Assembly (NCBI RefSeq): GCF_900115615.1
Contig: NZ_FOXB01000010.1
Span: 1 to 62,107, forward strand
Length of the DNA stretch: 62,107 nucleotides
Origin: Hydrogenimonas thermophila
GTDB taxonomy: Bacteria > Campylobacterota > Campylobacteria > Campylobacterales > Hydrogenimonadaceae
Direction of reading: 5' to 3'
Of the stretch, positions 5,559-58,266 are shown in pieces. The stretch's first letter is position 1. Every line of letters begins with the position of its first letter. The notes under the pieces were generated by a model, which saw only the letters and a program-made list of their open reading frames with translations, was not told the DNA's origin and searched no databases. Both the position numbers and the translations under genes were made by a program.

Positions 5559-6557
5559 ATGAAACAGGTTCAGCTAAGTCATGGTGGCGGCGGGGAGGAG
5601 ATGAACCGCCTCATTCATGATCTTTTTTATAAAAGTTTTGATAACGATATTTTGTCTAGTGCTGAAGATGCGGCTGTACTTAAGCCTGAAGGAAATGTCG
5701 CTTTTACAACAGACTCTTTTACTGTCAGTCCCATCTTTTTTAATGGTGGAGATATTGGAAAGCTTGCAGTAGCTGGTACTGTTAATGACCTAGCTATGAT
5801 GGGAGCAAAACCTCTTTGGCTCAGTAGTGCTTTTATGATAGAAGAGGGACTGCCTTTTGAAGAGCTGGAGCAAATTGTTCAAAGTATGGCAAAAGAGTTG
5901 CAAAAGAGTGGTGCAAAGGTTGTTTGCGGTGATACCAAGGTTGTTCCTAAAGGTTCTGTAGATAAGATATTTATTAATACTTCAGGCATAGGTGAAGTAC
6001 TTGTTAATGGCATTAGTGCTCATAATTTAGAGGTTGGAGATGCTATTATTGTATCTCGTGATATTGGACGCCATGGTGCTGCTATTATGATGGCACGAGA
6101 GGGAATTGATCTTGAAAGTGACTTAAAGAGTGATTGTGAAACACTTTGGCCTGCGGTAGAAGCTCTAATAGATGCAAAAGTTAAAATTAAAGCTATGCGC
6201 GACGCAACTAGAGGTGGTTTGGCTGCTGTGCTTAATGAGTGGGCAGAAGCAAGCAACATATGTATAGAGGTAGAGGAAGAGCAGTTGCCGGTTTGTGATG
6301 AAGTTAGAGGCATATGTGAAATGCTTGGTTTTGAACCTTATGATTTGGCAAATGAGGGTACATTTATTTTGGCAGTTGATTCTGCAGATAAAGAAGTTGC
6401 ACTGGAGGCTTTAAGCAAGTACTCTTTTTGTACCGATGCATCAGTTATAGGCAGTGTTACAGACAAAAAACAAGGTAAAGTGATTTTACAGAGTTCTTGG
6501 GGAAGTAACCGTTTTCTTGAACTGCCTAAAGGTGAACTATTGCCGAGGATCTGTTAA
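5559..6557 (+). CDS. hypE: Hydrogenase maturation protein HypE
   Basis: HypE dehydrates a C-terminal thiocarbamoyl cysteine to make the cyanide ligands of the hydrogenase iron. It starts with the conserved LSHGGGGEEMNRLI and contains DSFTVSPIFFNGGDIGKLAV and RDATRGGLAAVLNE. The protein ends PRIC, so the required C-terminal cysteine is present. Length is 332 residues. HypF, which supplies the carbamoyl group, is not in this window. The stop overlaps hypA by one base. Confidence 0.97.
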   Translation: MKQVQLSHGGGGEEMNRLIHDLFYKSFDNDILSSAEDAAVLKPEGNVAFTTDSFTVSPIFFNGGDIGKLAVAGTVNDLAMMGAKPLWLSSAFMIEEGLPFEELEQIVQSMAKELQKSGAKVVCGDTKVVPKGSVDKIFINTSGIGEVLVNGISAHNLEVGDAIIVSRDIGRHGAAIMMAREGIDLESDLKSDCETLWPAVEALIDAKVKIKAMRDATRGGLAAVLNEWAEASNICIEVEEEQLPVCDEVRGICEMLGFEPYDLANEGTFILAVDSADKEVALEALSKYSFCTDASVIGSVTDKKQGKVILQSSWGSNRFLELPKGELLPRIC

Positions 6558-6898
6558 TGCATGAATACTCTATAGTACAAGCTTTACTGCAACAGTGTGA
6601 ACATCATGCTGAAGCTAATGATGCTCAAAAAGTTACAAAAGTTGTTATAAAGATAGGTGTTTTAAGTGGTGTAGAGCCTCATCTGCTGCAAACTGCATTT
6701 GATACATTTAAAGAAGATACGGTTTGCTATGATGCAATATTGGAGATCATTCATCAAAAGGTAGTTATTCACTGTAATGATTGTAAAGATGATTTTACAA
6801 TTGAAAAGCATGAGTATGCCTGTCCTTCTTGTGGTGGCAGCAGTGTTAAGATTGTTGATGGTGAAGAGTTGCTATTGATGCAGCTTGAAATGGAGTAG
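6557..6898 (+). CDS. hypA: Hydrogenase nickel metallochaperone HypA (copy 1)
   Basis: HypA hands nickel to the hydrogenase with HypB. The MHE nickel-binding N-terminus is present, as are two CxxC pairs (CNDC and CPSC) that form the zinc site in the C-terminal half. Length is 113 residues. It is the last hyp gene of this operon and is followed after 3 bp by hemJ. A paralogue is at 56166-56507, within the hydrogenase structural operon. The two copies agree most in the N-terminus and the FKEDTVC region. Confidence 0.96.
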   Translation: MHEYSIVQALLQQCEHHAEANDAQKVTKVVIKIGVLSGVEPHLLQTAFDTFKEDTVCYDAILEIIHQKVVIHCNDCKDDFTIEKHEYACPSCGGSSVKIVDGEELLLMQLEME

Positions 6899-52069: not shown

Positions 52070-52651
52070 TCAGTTTAAAGTACGGCAGATAGCTTTTGCA
52101 ATCTCTTCACAGTAACTTTCTAACTCTTTTTCCAATACATGTTCACTGTGAAGGAAAGTTATACTTCCAAGAATTCCCATAATAGAAGAGAATGCAATAA
52201 AAAAATTTTCTTGTGTGAATTCATTATTTTTTACACCATCATCTATTAATATCTCTAACTCTTCAATAAACTCTTTTGCAAGCGAAAAACCGCAATCTTC
52301 TTCATTGCAGAAGATCTCTCTATTAGATAGGTATACTTGAAAAAAGTATTCAACCATTTCAGGATTTTTTTGAATAAATGAGAAATAACTTTTTACAAAT
52401 TCATATATCTTTTTTGTCGCAGATATAGGTTTACTATTGATATATCTTAGATCAATAGCCAATTTTCCAGTAACATGTGATATGGCAGCTGTTGCAAGAC
52501 TCATTTTAGATGGAAAGTGAGTATAGAGAGAGCCTTCACTAATACCTAGATTGCTGGCTATATCACGCATTGTTGTTTTATAAAAACCATGTTTTGAGAA
52601 AAGCTGCAGAGATGAAGCAATGATTTTTGCGCGTTTTTGCCTTTTATTCAA
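52070..52651 (-). CDS. TetR-family transcriptional regulator
   Basis: The 193-residue protein has a TetR helix-turn-helix (about residues 8-55, including FYKTTMRDIASNLGISEGSL and YTHFPSK) and an all-helical ligand domain with several cysteines. It is divergent from the hydrogenase operon. A perfect palindrome at 52736 upstream of it resembles sites upstream of both psr operons. It may therefore repress itself and those operons; the ligand is unknown. Confidence 0.88.
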   Translation of the reverse strand: MNKRQKRAKIIASSLQLFSKHGFYKTTMRDIASNLGISEGSLYTHFPSKMSLATAAISHVTGKLAIDLRYINSKPISATKKIYEFVKSYFSFIQKNPEMVEYFFQVYLSNREIFCNEEDCGFSLAKEFIEELEILIDDGVKNNEFTQENFFIAFSSIMGILGSITFLHSEHVLEKELESYCEEIAKAICRTLN

Positions 52652-52863: not shown

Positions 52864-53163
52864 ATGGTAGTACAGGAGAAAAGAACATGCATTAGAGCCT
52901 ACTGTAATATGGATTGCGGCAACAATGTAATGGAGATAGAGTATTGCTGCAAGAGTATGAAAGAGAAAATATTTGATGTTGTAGAAAAACTTATGAAAGC
53001 ACATAACTATCCGCCAGAAGAGGTAGAACTATATACCGAAGAACATAGTGAAGAGTGTGGATTGATTTGTGTTGAATTTTATCATGACGATATGCATCGT
53101 TATGGGTTACTATTTTTCAATGAATTGATGGCAGAACTTAATATTCAATATTGTGATGAATAA
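52864..53163 (+). CDS. Cysteine-rich hypothetical protein heading the hydrogenase operon
   Basis: The 99-residue protein has an N-terminal cysteine cluster (Cys9, 14, 18, 28, 29), then a helical acidic middle and a further cysteine group (EECGLIC) with a final C near the end. It could bind a metal or a cluster. It is 11 bp upstream of the hydrogenase small-subunit gene, which implies a role in this enzyme. I do not recognise a family. Confidence 0.65.
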   Translation: MVVQEKRTCIRAYCNMDCGNNVMEIEYCCKSMKEKIFDVVEKLMKAHNYPPEEVELYTEEHSEECGLICVEFYHDDMHRYGLLFFNELMAELNIQYCDE

Positions 53164-53174
53164 AGGATACAGGG

Positions 53175-54056
53175 ATGGATCAGGCAATCAAACCCAAACT
53201 ATTTAGAATAAATACAGGAAGCTGTAACGGATGTGATGTTGAGTTTGTAGCAACTGCATTTGTACCAAAGTTTCATGTTGAAGAGCTTGGCATAGAGTTG
53301 GTAGAGAGTATAGAAGATGCAAATGTTTTACTTGTAACTGGACCAATGACTGCTCGCAGTAAAGCTTACTTTGAAGAGGCAGTCTCTAAAGTGAAATCTC
53401 CGTATGTCGTAGTAGGTGTTGGTACTTGTTCGGTAACTACAGGTATTTTTAGAGACTCATATGCTATTTATGGACCATTAGACAAATATATAGATGTTGA
53501 TGTTAATGTGGCTGGTTGTCCTCCTCGTCCACAAGCTATTGCAGAAGCACTTGCTCAAGGTGTTGAGATATTGCAGGCTAAAGTAAGAGGAGAAAAAACT
53601 CCTACCAAACTAGAGACAATTTTTAATGATTTTGAAGCACCTAAAAGTTATAGAGGACGAATGGCATTAGATGAGCAGAAGTGTACAGCTTGCCGTACCT
53701 GTGAAACTGTATGTCCTTCAGGGGCTATTAAAATTACCAAAACATTGGAAGGGTACAGACACACAATTTGGCACAATACCTGCTGTTTTTGTGGTAACTG
53801 TTCATACTTCTGTCCTACCGGAGCTATTTTCCCAACCAATGATTTTCATACCGTTCAACTACAAGAAGAGAAATATACTGACACAAATATAGCACTTATA
53901 CCATTTCATGAGTGTGAAGATTGCGGTAAAAACTTTATACCAGCAACTAATGCATTAATAGCTAAATCATATCCAGATAAAGAGATACCAGAAATCTTGG
54001 CAACAAGTTGTCCGGAATGTAGAAAGAAAACAGCGTTTGAAAGGTTTTATAAATGA
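53175..54056 (+). CDS. Group-4-type [NiFe] hydrogenase small subunit fused to a two-cluster ferredoxin
   Basis: Residues 1-140 are a NuoB/EchC-like small subunit with the proximal [4Fe-4S] ligands Cys17, Cys20, Cys85 and Cys115 (SCNGCDVE, GTCSVT, GCPPRP). Residues 165-220 are a NuoI-like ferredoxin with two complete motifs (CTACRTCETVCP, CCFCGNCSYFCP). The tail has two more CxxC pairs (Cys247/250, 279/282) resembling a zinc ribbon. The fusion of small subunit and ferredoxin is notable. No membrane segment or signal is present, so it is cytoplasmic. It overlaps the next gene by 4 bp. Confidence 0.85.
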   Translation: MDQAIKPKLFRINTGSCNGCDVEFVATAFVPKFHVEELGIELVESIEDANVLLVTGPMTARSKAYFEEAVSKVKSPYVVVGVGTCSVTTGIFRDSYAIYGPLDKYIDVDVNVAGCPPRPQAIAEALAQGVEILQAKVRGEKTPTKLETIFNDFEAPKSYRGRMALDEQKCTACRTCETVCPSGAIKITKTLEGYRHTIWHNTCCFCGNCSYFCPTGAIFPTNDFHTVQLQEEKYTDTNIALIPFHECEDCGKNFIPATNALIAKSYPDKEIPEILATSCPECRKKTAFERFYK

Positions 54057-54553
54057 AAATAGAAGAGATTATACAACCACTTCAGGCAAGTTTGCAATAT
54101 GCATATGAGCTTAAAGAAGATAGTGACAGTTATGGAAACAAACTATTATGGCTTAAACTTGATGATAAAAGAGATGTCATAAATGTTGCTCGGGTAGTTG
54201 CTAATTTAGGTGGTCGTTGTGTTACAGCCACAGCATACAAAACTGATGATGGTCACGTTATTATCTATCATTTAGATGTTGATGGAATTATTATAAATAT
54301 GGAAGCACATACAACTGATAGCATTATAGACTCTATTACTCCTTTGCTTCCAAGTGCTGACTGGGCTGAGCGTGAGTTTCGTGAAATGTATGGCATTGAA
54401 CCAATTGGTCATCCACATAATGAGAGACTATTTCTTGATGAAAGCATTATGAAGGGTGTGTTAAATCGATATATTCCTCTTTCAAAGATGATGCTCGGTG
54501 TAAGTGAGAGCGATATTTTATGGGAGAGAGTTGAGAAGGAGAATAAAGCATGA
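54053..54553 (+). CDS. NuoC-like hydrogenase subunit
   Basis: The 166-residue protein resembles the 30-kDa subunit of complex I and its hydrogenase counterpart (EchD, HycE N-domain). The hallmark is DWAEREFREMYGIEPIGHP followed by LFLDES. It probably bridges small and large subunits structurally. It overlaps both neighbours by 4 bp (ATGA), so stoichiometric expression is likely. Confidence 0.85.
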   Translation: MKIEEIIQPLQASLQYAYELKEDSDSYGNKLLWLKLDDKRDVINVARVVANLGGRCVTATAYKTDDGHVIIYHLDVDGIIINMEAHTTDSIIDSITPLLPSADWAEREFREMYGIEPIGHPHNERLFLDESIMKGVLNRYIPLSKMMLGVSESDILWERVEKENKA

Positions 54554-55632
54554 GCGAAAAGGTAACAATTGGTCCATTCCATCCTGAGTTGGAAGAGTCG
54601 GTTTATTTTAAGCTTCAAGCTAACGACAATAAAGTTGTAACAAGTATTGATTTGGTCAATGGTTTCATTCATCGAGGAATGGAGGCATTGGTTACACAGA
54701 AAAACTTTATGCAAAATCTTATTTTAACAGAGAGGGTCTGTTCTCTTTGTTCTAACAACCACCCTTTCGCTTATGCGTTGGCAGTAGAGAAGATTGCAGG
54801 GGTAAAAGTTCCACAACGAGCAGAAGCATTGAGAGTAGTAGCTGATGAGGTGAAAAGATCTGCATCAAATCTTTTTAACCTTGCAATGATGTCTCATCTG
54901 GTTCATCACCATGATTTAATGAAAGAGACAATGGAAGCTCGTGAATTGATGCAAGATCTTAAAGAGATCATTTGGGGTAACCGAATGGATATGAGTGCAA
55001 ATACTCTTACCGGTGTAAAGTATGATTTAGATGATGAGAAGATTGATCTGATTCTTAAAACACTTGAAACATTTGAGCCTAAACTTGAGTCACTGACAGA
55101 GCAGTATGAAAATGATGAAACAGTTGTCAATAGAACTGTAGGAATCGGTGTTCTTCCAAAGGTAGATGCACAAAGGTTGGGTGTAACAGGTCCGGTAGCA
55201 AGAGGTAGTGGCATTAATAACGATGTACGTGTCAAAGCACCATATGCACTATATGGAGAGTTGAAACCAAAAGTTACACTTAGAGATGCTGGTGATGTAC
55301 ATGCAAGAGCAATGTGTCGTTTGGGTGATATTGCCGAAGCAGTACGCCTGATTAAAGATGTAGTAAATGATCTTCCTGAAGGACCAGTAGTTCTTGAAAA
55401 ACGACCTCATATTCCAGCAGGTGAAGCAACAGTAAGAGTAGAAGCACCTCGTGGTGAGCTTATCTACTACCTAAAAACAGATGGAACACAAAAACCTGTA
55501 AGAATGCGATGGAAAGTGCCTACCTATACAAACTGGGAAGCGCTTAAAGTTATGATTCTTGGTGATAAAGTAAGCGATGTAACACTGATTTTAAATAGTA
55601 TAGATCCTTGTATCTCATGTACAGAGCGGTAA
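54550..55632 (+). CDS. Group-4-type [NiFe] hydrogenase large (catalytic) subunit
   Basis: The 360-residue protein is NuoD/EchE-like but keeps all four nickel-binding cysteines: RVCSLC (Cys64, Cys67) and DPCISC (Cys354, Cys357). It is therefore a hydrogenase rather than a complex I subunit. The protein ends three residues after the last ligand (CTER), so there is no C-terminal peptide to be removed by a maturation protease. No gene for such a protease is seen nearby. HypA and the hyp operon would supply the metal centre. Confidence 0.88.
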   Translation: MSEKVTIGPFHPELEESVYFKLQANDNKVVTSIDLVNGFIHRGMEALVTQKNFMQNLILTERVCSLCSNNHPFAYALAVEKIAGVKVPQRAEALRVVADEVKRSASNLFNLAMMSHLVHHHDLMKETMEARELMQDLKEIIWGNRMDMSANTLTGVKYDLDDEKIDLILKTLETFEPKLESLTEQYENDETVVNRTVGIGVLPKVDAQRLGVTGPVARGSGINNDVRVKAPYALYGELKPKVTLRDAGDVHARAMCRLGDIAEAVRLIKDVVNDLPEGPVVLEKRPHIPAGEATVRVEAPRGELIYYLKTDGTQKPVRMRWKVPTYTNWEALKVMILGDKVSDVTLILNSIDPCISCTER

Positions 55633-55648
55633 GTTAGGAGTTTAAACG

Positions 55649-56173
55649 ATGAGTCATAAATTTATATATGCAGACGCACAAAAATGCATCGGCTGTCTTA
55701 ACTGTGAATTGGCTTGTGCAGCAAGCCATATGGGTATTACACTTGAAAAAGCGTATGAGTTAGGACAGAGTGGTGTAAAGCTTATTTCACGCAACAGAGT
55801 AATAAAAAGTGGAGAATTGACTGCTCCAATGCAGTGTATGCAGTGTATGGATGCACCTTGTGTAAATGCCTGCCCAATTGACATTATCAAGTATGAAGAC
55901 AACTATGTGAAGTATTATGAAGATGACTGCATAGGATGCCAAAGTTGTGAAATGGTTTGCCCGTATGGAGCAGTTGTAATGGCACCAAATGAGAAAGATG
56001 ATGCTCCTGTAAGCAAAATGGTTGCATTGACATGTGATTTATGTGGCGGAGAAGATGGCAAGCAAGCTTGTGTCAATGTATGTCCTACAGATGCAATTTC
56101 ACTGATCGATTACGATCTTTACAAAGCTATTGAGTATGGAAGAGAGTTGGAGGGGCGGCACGCAAATGCATGA
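55649..56173 (+). CDS. Polyferredoxin (HydN/CooF-like)
   Basis: The 174-residue protein has four [4Fe-4S] motifs (CIGCLNCELAC, CMQCMDAPCVNACP, CIGCQSCEMVCP, CDLCGG...CVNVCP), as in CooF, HydN and DMSO-reductase-type electron-transfer subunits. It would move electrons between the hydrogenase and the GltD-like flavoprotein. It follows the large subunit by 16 bp and overlaps hypA copy 2 by 8 bp. Confidence 0.87.
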   Translation: MSHKFIYADAQKCIGCLNCELACAASHMGITLEKAYELGQSGVKLISRNRVIKSGELTAPMQCMQCMDAPCVNACPIDIIKYEDNYVKYYEDDCIGCQSCEMVCPYGAVVMAPNEKDDAPVSKMVALTCDLCGGEDGKQACVNVCPTDAISLIDYDLYKAIEYGRELEGRHANA

Positions 56174-56507
56174 GTATTCAATCGTTCAGTCGATGCTCGA
56201 TCTGTGTGAGAAACACTCAAAGGGAAAAGCAGTTGAAAAAGTTGCCGTCAAAATAGGCAAAATGAGCGGTATCGAACCACACTTTTTAAAAGAGAGTTTT
56301 GAAGTGTTTAAAGAAGATACCGTCTGTCATGATGCTGTTATGGAGATGGAGCTTATCGATATTACGATTGAATGTCAAAAGTGCAAAGAGGTTTCAAAAG
56401 TTGACAATTTCAACTTTTACTGTCCCCTATGTGAAAGCGGTGATACAAAGGTACTCACCGGACAGGAGATGCATATAGACTATATCGTGTTAAAGGAAGA
56501 TGGATGA
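56166..56507 (+). CDS. hypA: Hydrogenase nickel metallochaperone HypA (copy 2)
   Basis: The 113-residue paralogue keeps MHE at the N-terminus and two CxxC pairs (CQKC, CPLC). I choose the ATG at 56166, where the conserved MHEYSIVQ begins, over a longer frame at 56130. It lies inside the hydrogenase structural operon, which suggests a dedicated chaperone for this enzyme. It overlaps the next gene by 4 bp. Confidence 0.95.
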   Translation: MHEYSIVQSMLDLCEKHSKGKAVEKVAVKIGKMSGIEPHFLKESFEVFKEDTVCHDAVMEMELIDITIECQKCKEVSKVDNFNFYCPLCESGDTKVLTGQEMHIDYIVLKEDG

Positions 56508-57928
56508 AGAAGCATTATCTGAAGGTAAAAAGAGAGACTCCGAAAAAGAGAGATCCTAACGAGAGAATTGTAGACTTTCACCCTACATATGAGATGTTCA
56601 GTGAATCAGAAGCAAGTTTACAGTCTGCACGCTGTATCAAATGCCCAATAGATATATTACGTGATTTAAAGAGTGAGTTTAGTTTTTGTCGTACAGGATG
56701 TCCTCTTGAAAATAAAATTCCTATTTGGGTTGAAAAAGTAAAAGAGGGTGATATTGAAGGGGCATTTAAAGCAAGTAATGAAGTCTCTCCATTTCCTGAA
56801 ATCTTGGGACTTGTCTGCCCTCATGATATTCTTTGCCAAGGTGGCTGTACAATTTCCAGAACAGAACATGGAAGTGTGACAATTGGTGCTATTGAAGTCT
56901 ATTTGAATGAAGAGGCATTTAAAAGAGGTCTTAGACCATACTATGGTGAAGATAAACCAAAAACTGGACATAAAGTTGCTGTTATAGGTAGTGGTCCTGC
57001 CGGATTTAGCTGTGCTACATTTCTTTTAAGAGGCGGTGTTGAGGTAGATATGTTTGAAAAGTCTGACCGTCCTGGTGGACTTTTAACATATGGTATTCCT
57101 AACTTTAAAATTTGTAAAGATGTAATTTTACGTCGATTCGAGTGGATGCAGGAAGCTGGACTAAATCTATATCTAAACACAGAGATTAAAAGCTCTGCTC
57201 AGATGAAAGAGATGCTCAATGAGTATGATGCTATTTTCGTTGCTCTTGGTGCACCAAGCGGACGAAGTGCTCGTATGAAGAATGAGGATGCACATGGTGT
57301 ATATCACGTTATGGATATTCTTAAGCATGCTCAAAAAAGAGTATTTGAAGATTTCTATGAGTTTATTCTTGAAGGTAAAGATGTTGTTGTTATTGGAGGT
57401 GGTGACTCAGCAATGGATGCTGTACGAACTGCCATACGTACAAAAGCAAAATCTGTAAAATGTCTCTATCGACGTGATGAAGCGAATATGCCTGGAAGTA
57501 AAAAAGAGGTTATTAACGCTAAAGAAGAGGGTGTTCAGTTTGAGTTCTATACTGCTCCAAAAGAGGTTGTAGTTGATGAAGGACACCACGTTAAGGGCAT
57601 AATCTGCCAAAGAACAGAGCTTGGTGAACCTGATGAAAGTGGTAGACGTAGACTTAATGTTGTCGAAGGAAGTGAATTTGAGATTCCTTGTGATGTAATT
57701 ATTCTAGCTCTTGGATTTGACAATGTTATCTTCCCTTGGTATGAAGATGCACAGATCAAGACAGGTAAATGGGGTGAAGTTTTAGTTGATGAAAATAAAC
57801 GAACTTCTAACCCACGAATTTTTGCCGGTGGTGATGCTGTAAGAGGTGCCGATTTAGCTGTTACAGCTGCAGCAGATGGTAAAAAAGCAGCACTTACCAT
57901 TTTAAAAGATTTTGGTATATCTCTATAA
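56504..57928 (+). CDS. GltD-like FAD/NAD(P)H oxidoreductase with Fe-S domain
   Basis: The 474-residue protein resembles the small subunit of glutamate synthase and related electron-transfer flavoproteins. The N-terminal cysteine-rich domain (RCIKC, CRTGCPLENKIP, CPHDILCQGGC) binds Fe-S clusters. A FAD site (IGSGPAGFSC) and a NAD(P)H site (VVVIGGGDSAMDAVRTA) follow, with a second FAD motif FAGGDAVRGADL. There is no gltB beside it. In this operon it probably links hydrogenase electrons to NAD(P), which is inference. A hairpin follows. Confidence 0.87.
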   Translation: MKKHYLKVKRETPKKRDPNERIVDFHPTYEMFSESEASLQSARCIKCPIDILRDLKSEFSFCRTGCPLENKIPIWVEKVKEGDIEGAFKASNEVSPFPEILGLVCPHDILCQGGCTISRTEHGSVTIGAIEVYLNEEAFKRGLRPYYGEDKPKTGHKVAVIGSGPAGFSCATFLLRGGVEVDMFEKSDRPGGLLTYGIPNFKICKDVILRRFEWMQEAGLNLYLNTEIKSSAQMKEMLNEYDAIFVALGAPSGRSARMKNEDAHGVYHVMDILKHAQKRVFEDFYEFILEGKDVVVIGGGDSAMDAVRTAIRTKAKSVKCLYRRDEANMPGSKKEVINAKEEGVQFEFYTAPKEVVVDEGHHVKGIICQRTELGEPDESGRRRLNVVEGSEFEIPCDVIILALGFDNVIFPWYEDAQIKTGKWGEVLVDENKRTSNPRIFAGGDAVRGADLAVTAAADGKKAALTILKDFGISL

Positions 57929-57939
57929 AACCTACAACA

Positions 57940-57969
57940 CTCCTGTTTCGTTTTAGATCGAAACAGGAG
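57940..57969 (+). terminator. Terminator of the hydrogenase operon
   Basis: CTCCTGTTTCG (57940-57950) pairs perfectly with CGAAACAGGAG (57959-57969), an 11-bp stem with an 8-base loop, 12 bp after the last stop. The flanking T-tract is weak. The remaining sequence up to the tRNA-Asn promoter shows no gene. Confidence 0.65.
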
Positions 57970-58127: not shown

Positions 58128-58156
58128 TTGACAAAACAGAAGTTTTAGAATATAAT
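58128..58156 (+). promoter_or_regulatory. Consensus sigma-70 promoter of tRNA-Asn
   Basis: TTGACA (58128-58133) and TATAAT (58151-58156) are both perfect and 17 bp apart. The tRNA begins 36 bp after the -10. Confidence 0.9.
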
Positions 58157-58191
58157 TTCGGCGTGATTTATGAATCACAAACCTCAAAGAT

Positions 58192-58266
58192 TCCGGATTA
58201 GCTCAGCGGTAGAGTAGGTGGCTGTTAACCACTTGGTCGCTGGTTCGAATCCAGCATCCGGAGCCA
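58192..58266 (+). tRNA. tRNA-Asn (anticodon GTT)
   Basis: The acceptor TCCGGAT pairs fully with ATCCGGA. The anticodon loop CTGTTAA gives GTT. The T arm CTGG-TTCGAAT-CCAG is standard, and the discriminator G is followed by encoded CCA. Its 3' half is duplicated in degenerate form at 59095-59143. Confidence 0.95.

Follow-up and report, generated by a model that had tools for sequence, protein, structure and literature searches.

A seven-gene operon in Hydrogenimonas thermophila, located on contig NZ_FOXB01000010.1 (62,107 nt, analysed at its full length and called the window), probably encodes a Coo-type hydrogenase without an ion-pumping membrane arm, which would act as a cytoplasmic, reversible H2:NADP(H) (nicotinamide adenine dinucleotide phosphate) oxidoreductase. 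The initial annotation of this region, made from the letters alone, had listed a small subunit fused to a ferredoxin, a NuoC-like subunit, a large subunit, a polyferredoxin, a HypA and an oxidoreductase; all six genes were found intact where it had placed them, and only the 99-residue open reading frame p1, which is conserved in relatives, had been omitted. Since ATGA overlaps are present at three gene junctions and the HydN and HypA genes overlap by 8 nt, the operon genes are almost certainly translated together. Relative to L074, the nearest relative (a Hydrogenimonas metagenome-assembled genome (MAG) that shares the flanking genes), the ratio of nonsynonymous to synonymous rates (dN/dS) was about 0.03–0.05 for six operon genes, p1 included, with synonymous sites near saturation (HydN fully saturated), and all seven genes are estimated to be under strong purifying selection. 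A synteny comparison across Campylobacterota, which the initial annotation had proposed, found the same gene order in dozens of genomes; because of this recurrence and the purifying selection, a chance assembly of genes can be excluded. No likely transmembrane helix was found in any operon protein using a score with a threshold of 1.6, the sole score above it being 1.62, in one stretch of the GltD-like flavoprotein.

In a large-subunit tree, from which the characterised CooH of R. rubrum and Carboxydothermus were left out, the protein fell within one Coo clade together with CooM/CooK-bearing Desulfobacterota (97/100), separate from seven Ech proteins, HycE, Hyf and NuoD. The enzyme is on this placement a group 4 [NiFe] hydrogenase, as initially annotated, and more specifically one of Coo (CooH) type; an Ech (group 4e) identity was rejected, as the large subunit lies in a separate clade and a true Ech set is encoded on contig C8. 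The large subunit contains the [NiFe] CxxC motifs (RVCSLC and DPCISCTER) and ends right after the second of these without a C-terminal extension, its [NiFe] residues Cys64, Cys67, Cys354 and Cys357 are invariant across 15 sequences, and its best full-length PDB matches were the large subunits of Pyrococcus Mbh and E. coli formate hydrogenlyase. The small subunit, for which the best PDB matches were MbhJ and HycG, keeps the proximal-cluster residues Cys17, Cys20, Cys85 and Cys115. Predicted cofactors are the [NiFe] site in CooH, one proximal cluster in CooL, two clusters plus a four-Cys C-terminal site in the CooX domain, four [4Fe-4S] clusters in HydN (16 Cys), and two iron–sulfur (Fe-S) clusters, flavin adenine dinucleotide (FAD) and an NADPH site in GltD. 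The dedicated HypA is a true second copy (the other, at 6557–6892, is also within the window). However, the presence of a polyferredoxin and HypA, initially taken as unusual, is standard in Coo operons (cooMKLXUH-hypA-cooF), and the order in Carboxydothermus is cooMKLXUH-hypA-cooFS (PMC4257681). As hypA and a CooF-type ferredoxin following CooH make up the ordinary Coo layout, GltD occupies the place of CO dehydrogenase; CooM, CooK and CooS are all absent from the operon.

A close large-subunit relative (at least 56% identity) was found in 23 of 397 sampled Campylobacterota genomes, three other genomes of the host's genus being without the subunit, and a wider scan of 84,980 species genomes produced more relatives, Desulfobacterota among them. 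Comparison of the operon neighbourhoods revealed four arrangements. Desulfobacterota (7/7) have CooM-CooK-CooL-CooX-CooU-CooH with HypA and a CooF-like ferredoxin, without GltD; Nautiliaceae (5 genomes) have this set, including CooM/CooK, plus GltD; Sulfurospirillum (10) has GltD, no CooM/CooK, and mostly separate CooL and CooX; and the window clade (14, comprising Hydrogenimonas, Sulfurovum, Sulfurimonas, Arcobacter-like MAGs and others) has GltD, no CooM/CooK, and fused CooL-CooX. GltD was present in 30/30 Campylobacterota operons and 0/7 Desulfobacterota operons. In one Nautiliaceae genome (G004), CooM and CooK have been lost at the same chromosomal place (L054 compared with L086), flanked by an S4-domain protein and a class II tRNA synthetase with an editing domain, which precede CooM in the relative L086.

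With six subunits concatenated, Nautiliaceae grouped with the window clade (100/99), and Sulfurospirillum fell outside. Constraining Sulfurospirillum and the window clade as one clade was rejected (approximately unbiased test, p = 0.0015), and constraining all membrane-less forms together was rejected more weakly (p = 0.023), using groups set by gene content, but after the large-subunit tree had already been seen. Since a single membrane-less clade is rejected, the membrane arm is read from these trees as lost at least twice, or as lost once and regained in Nautiliaceae; parsimony by itself does not distinguish a history of two changes with a regain from one of three losses. Re-acquisition of CooMKL by Nautiliaceae from Desulfobacterota had been suspected from a small-subunit identity of ~70% across these phyla (membrane-less small subunits from the same phylum as Nautiliaceae being 50–55% identical), and was rejected, as the small-subunit tree keeps Nautiliaceae with the window clade (96/94). 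Faster small-subunit evolution in the other lineages fits the cross-phylum identity better. CooMK alone may have been regained in Nautiliaceae.

The small-subunit face toward the membrane is, from alignment, decayed in both main membrane-less clades. Distances to Halodesulfovibrio were taken relative to those of Nautiliaceae (simple Kimura estimates, column bootstrap), producing small-subunit ratios of 2.65 (95%, 2.08–3.65) for the window clade, to which the CooL-CooX fusion could contribute changes of its own, 2.14 (1.64–2.95) for Sulfurospirillum, 2.18 (1.65–3.05) for G004 (one genome), and 0.92 for membrane-linked Desulfobacterota; ratios for CooX, CooU, CooH, HydN and HypA were about 1.0–1.4. 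The changes concentrate in the RYDxxRxG...SPxxAD segment after the first cluster motif, where D34, R37 and D50 (window numbering) are kept in 19/19 membrane-linked small subunits, including NuoB and EchC of this genome and E. coli HycG. Within the two main membrane-less clades D34 and R37 are gone in 24/24 and D50 in 23/24 (replaced by H, E and N, respectively, in the window protein), and G004 retains D34 and D50. The motif is also found in MbhJ and mitochondrial complex I, and in bovine complex I the stretch (peptide DRFGVVFRASPRQS) lies as a loop close to the tunnel for quinone that ND1 helps to form (PMC3750175), ND1 being the counterpart of CooK. Because a borrowed arm would be expected to keep the subunit contacting it conserved, the decay of the small subunit suggests that the arm is truly absent.

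The host genome (Campylobacterota, a 2.44-Mb draft rated 100% complete) also encodes large subunits of three group 1-type hydrogenases, an additional short one, and, adjoining complex I genes on contig C8, an Ech with all six subunits. As initially annotated, the operon contains no membrane subunit, and a genome-wide search using PF00361 (Proton_antipo_M) and PF00146 (NADHdh) found no spare CooM/CooK-type gene. The four PF00361 and two PF00146 matches all belong to complex I and Ech, each of which exists with its own full subunit set, so no orphan membrane pair is left for the operon, and membrane subunits encoded elsewhere were rejected on this basis. CO dehydrogenase (CooS) gave no match over the family cut-off in the genome and was rejected as the partner of the hydrogenase.

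The GltD-like protein has a score right at the cut-off of TIGR01318, the model for glutamate synthase small subunits, and its best PDB match was the GltS small subunit. The FAD and NADPH Rossmann motifs are present, and seven Fe-S cysteines and Arg323/Arg324 (YRR motif) are conserved in 30/30 hydrogenase-linked GltD proteins. These proteins make up a single clade (97/100), in which the order of branching of Sulfurospirillum, Nautiliaceae and the window clade matches that of the hydrogenase tree; the glutamate synthase GltD encoded in these genomes falls outside the clade, as do GltD and AegA of E. coli. Because this one clade is congruent with the hydrogenase tree, GltD is interpreted as recruited once by the hydrogenase and then retained. 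The columns separating it from glutamate synthase GltD are concentrated near the first Fe-S loop, where there is an insertion, as would be expected for a different partner. The initial proposal of a cytoplasmic enzyme reducing NAD(P) or ferredoxin finds support as to its cytoplasmic location and the NADP(H) link, the latter suggested by a hydrogenase-specific GltD that keeps its NADPH and Fe-S features. As a separate observation, GltB (about 1460 residues) is without a GltD of its own in the operon-bearing relative G224 and in Nautiliaceae (L118–L123), where the hydrogenase-linked protein is the only full GltD-type protein; GltB there either shares the hydrogenase GltD (H2-driven glutamate synthesis) or uses another donor. 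One flavoprotein might serve both GltB and the hydrogenase in genomes without a second GltD, but not in this host. A ferredoxin-type GltB was considered for those genomes and rejected, as a search for a clade-specific insertion in GltB gave none.

Electrons from H2 would enter at the [NiFe] site of CooH, pass through the proximal cluster of CooL to the two clusters of the fused CooX domain, and then reach NADP+ by way of the HydN/CooF polyferredoxin, the two GltD Fe-S clusters and FAD. HydN and GltD would be in physical contact, with GltD taking the place of CO dehydrogenase as partner of the CooF-type ferredoxin. CooF of classical CO-oxidising operons is the carrier for electrons released by CO dehydrogenase. 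At the H2 levels of vents, the H2 potential lies below or nearly equals that of NADP(H), which removes the need for an ion gradient; for H2 to reduce a low-potential ferredoxin, by contrast, such a gradient is required. Because H2 reduces NADP+ without a membrane potential, the arm could have been dropped once the flavoprotein had joined, since with NADP(H) as partner in place of ferredoxin or CO dehydrogenase it would no longer be required. The net direction in this autotroph would probably be from H2 to NADPH for biosynthesis, with a possible division of labour in which Ech could serve ferredoxin and the Coo-type enzyme NADPH.

It is unlikely that the operon encodes a peripheral module that conserves energy by docking on a membrane arm from another locus, either EchA/EchB on contig C8 or that of complex I. 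The genome does encode EchA/EchB and NuoH, and Nautiliaceae relatives have CooMK within the operon, but Ech already has its full set, membrane-facing small-subunit residues are lost in two clades, and in G224 an Ech arm cannot be borrowed since NuoH is the only PF00146 protein, with no EchB-type protein besides it. That the flavoprotein is a plain glutamate synthase small subunit, lying beside the hydrogenase by chance, appears very improbable. Its borderline family score would fit, as would the lack of any other GltD for GltB in Nautiliaceae and G224, and in the N. profundicola genome paper (PMC2628731) the partner assigned to glutamate synthase is a GltD-type gene that appears to be this one. 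On the other hand, the host has its own gltBD pair on contig C6, the hydrogenase-linked proteins form a separate clade found in every Campylobacterota operon and congruent with the hydrogenase tree, and the differences cluster at the first Fe-S loop with its insertion; on the host's own gltBD and the distinct clade, this identity was rejected.

Flavin-based bifurcation, in which GltD would split electron pairs from H2 between NADP+ and low-potential ferredoxin, had been raised in the initial annotation, finds no support here and is very improbable. The related NfnB subunit bifurcates (PMC8097209) and was also among the PDB matches, and autotrophs using the reductive tricarboxylic acid (TCA) cycle need both NADPH and reduced ferredoxin. 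The operon, however, contains no second flavoprotein and no NfnA-like partner with a second flavin and a [2Fe-2S] cluster, the structural matches are closer to GltS small subunits than to Nfn, and bifurcation is absent from most proteins of GltD type. Were it true, NADPH and reduced ferredoxin would be fed to the reductive TCA cycle without a membrane arm, by what would be, to our knowledge, the first group 4 hydrogenase-based enzyme to bifurcate electrons. There is likewise little chance that the operon is a relic near loss, with no activity or little use, a fate proposed for the S. multivorans cluster once CO dehydrogenase had been lost. The distribution is patchy (23/397, with three congeners lacking the operon), and the S. 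multivorans transcript of the orthologous large subunit was negligible under the conditions tested, its authors suggesting possible non-functionality (PMC5357620), but the seven genes are intact and under strong purifying selection, motifs are conserved across relatives, and new features have been gained (subunit fusion, p1), unlike in decay. The preferred reading, a cytoplasmic H2:NADP(H) oxidoreductase, is itself weakened by that transcript and by several further points. The H. thermophila enzyme is known here from its genes alone, and soluble fractions of S. multivorans and S. cavolei gave no detectable H2 from methyl viologen (PMC6242987). Nautiliaceae hold both a membrane arm and GltD, so GltD alone does not force loss of the arm; NADPH specificity is predicted from motifs; and p1 is unexplained by the scheme.

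Features of the operon and its flanks are collected in Table 1. In p1, Cys9, Cys14 and Cys97 are invariant; homologues are present at the equivalent place in 10/14 fused-subunit operons and, among the operons compared, were found only with fused, membrane-less ones. Its predicted fold is beta-beta-alpha-beta-beta-alpha (mean predicted local distance difference test score 82, a moderate-quality model), and a structure search of the PDB with this model gave no confident match. The hairpin with which the operon had been said to end does exist as a perfect stem, but an intrinsic terminator was not called there and was rejected, as no T-run follows. The divergent TetR-family gene has homologues (53–80%) within about 4 kb of the equivalent operon in L074, L076, L046 and L080, and regulation of the operon by it is possible. 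Just downstream of the operon (58128–58265), a perfect sigma-70-like promoter (TTGACA-17-TATAAT) precedes an apparent tRNA gene. Elsewhere in the host genome, a 667-residue protein with a GltD-like part is encoded among the nuo genes, adjoining nuoD (L014:1842–3845, contig C8), with similar proteins in G224, G105 and G355. G105 and G355 encode an additional group-4-like complex (L124:237–6962, L125:4744–11419), consisting of two antiporter-like proteins, a HycD-like protein, a 454-residue large-subunit-like protein (28% to HycE), and a small subunit with CNAC instead of CNGC.

Table 1. Operon genes and flanking features, in window coordinates.
Feature	Position	Strand	Family match or remark
Operon, seven tightly packed genes	52864–57928	+	
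p1, 99 residues, 8 Cys, first gene of the operon	52864–53163	+	no Pfam or NCBIfam match
Small subunit (CooL/NuoB type) fused to two-cluster ferredoxin (CooX/HycF type)	53175–54056	+	PF01058 and Fer4
CooU/NuoC-like subunit	54053–54553	+	PF00329
Large subunit, CooH type	54550–55632	+	PF00346 and PF00374
HydN/CooF-type polyferredoxin	55649–56173	+	Pfam Fer4 families; best NCBIfam matches AegA N-terminal region and HydN
HypA nickel metallochaperone, second genome copy	56166–56507	+	PF01155
GltD-like FAD/[4Fe-4S] NADP(H) oxidoreductase (predicted)	56504–57928	+	TIGR01318
Perfect 11-bp inverted repeat 3' of the last gene	57940–57969		no T-run
TetR-family gene, divergent from the operon, candidate regulator	52070–52651	-	PF00440

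The nearest described system is EchEDFC of S. multivorans (SMUL_1307–1310), likewise CooH-type and in a cluster without membrane subunit genes, which Kruse et al. 2017 (PMC5357620) termed remarkable, considering CO dehydrogenase loss and non-functionality; a membrane-less relative had in this respect already been described, with no mention of the flavoprotein in the available text. Sulfurospirillum operons, in the neighbouring clade, have HydN, HypA and GltD in the same order as the window, with a large subunit 55–59% identical to that of the window, a usually unfused small subunit and ferredoxin, no p1, and a membrane loss that was probably independent. Five of six subunits were detected in S. 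cavolei at low abundance by Kruse et al. 2018 (PMC6242987). In two Sulfurospirillum genomes (G109 and one other; L126, L127), CO dehydrogenase was observed about 8 kb from a Hyf-type large subunit, and on a different contig or >800 kb from the membrane-less Coo operon, rather than beside it as the literature implies. Much the same core arrangement is found in Carboxydothermus (cooMKLXUH-hypA-cooFS), R. rubrum (cooMKLXUH; PMC4257681) and the Desulfobacterota operons (L089–L104); CooL, CooX, CooU, CooH, HypA and a CooF-type ferredoxin are common to classical Coo systems and the window, which differs in the absence of CooM, CooK and CO dehydrogenase, the addition of GltD and the CooL-CooX fusion. 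Nautilia profundicola (PMC2628731) and other Nautiliaceae (L049–L053, L086) share this core with HydN, HypA and GltD (large subunit 63–67% identical), but have CooM (about 1160 residues) and CooK upstream, except in G004, and fumarate-reductase-like genes downstream (flavoprotein, Fe-S and CCG-domain subunits; L049:10260–13811, L054:2499–6048), the latter in both CooMK-bearing and CooMK-less members.

The same pairing of a HydN-type ferredoxin with a GltD module occurs in E. coli AegA/YgfT, but there both are parts of one polypeptide involved in the formate-dependent use of uric acid; because the GltD domain of AegA clusters with GltD of E. coli and falls outside the hydrogenase clade, this pairing probably had an independent origin. 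Group 3b NADP-linked soluble hydrogenases (sulfhydrogenase) would carry out the same cytoplasmic H2/NADP(H) reaction, using another lineage of large and small subunits and another NAD(P)H module, and gave a weak match only. Wang et al. 2021 (PMC7952632) discussed CooLUHF in Sulfurimonas S2-6 as an energy-converting, CO-linked enzyme, and Campbell et al. 2009 (PMC2628731) listed the Nautilia coo operon, with CooLH, not the full operon, in Caminibacter. The openly accessible papers that were searched do not describe the flavoprotein as belonging to this system. The missing membrane subunits had thus been published for S. multivorans, and the GltD link, the repeated loss and the decay of the interface appear new.

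Group 4 hydrogenases and complex I have a common core, and both are defined by electron transfer coupled to ion pumping. On at least two occasions (unless one loss was followed by a regain), this coupling appears to have been given up, in every case in an operon with an NADP(H) flavoprotein, and such natural deletions could be used to map the residues for coupling as against those for catalysis. The proposed reaction gives a testable function to a Sulfurospirillum enzyme previously set aside as possibly non-functional, and suggests a route by which H2 may drive NADPH supply in vent autotrophs.

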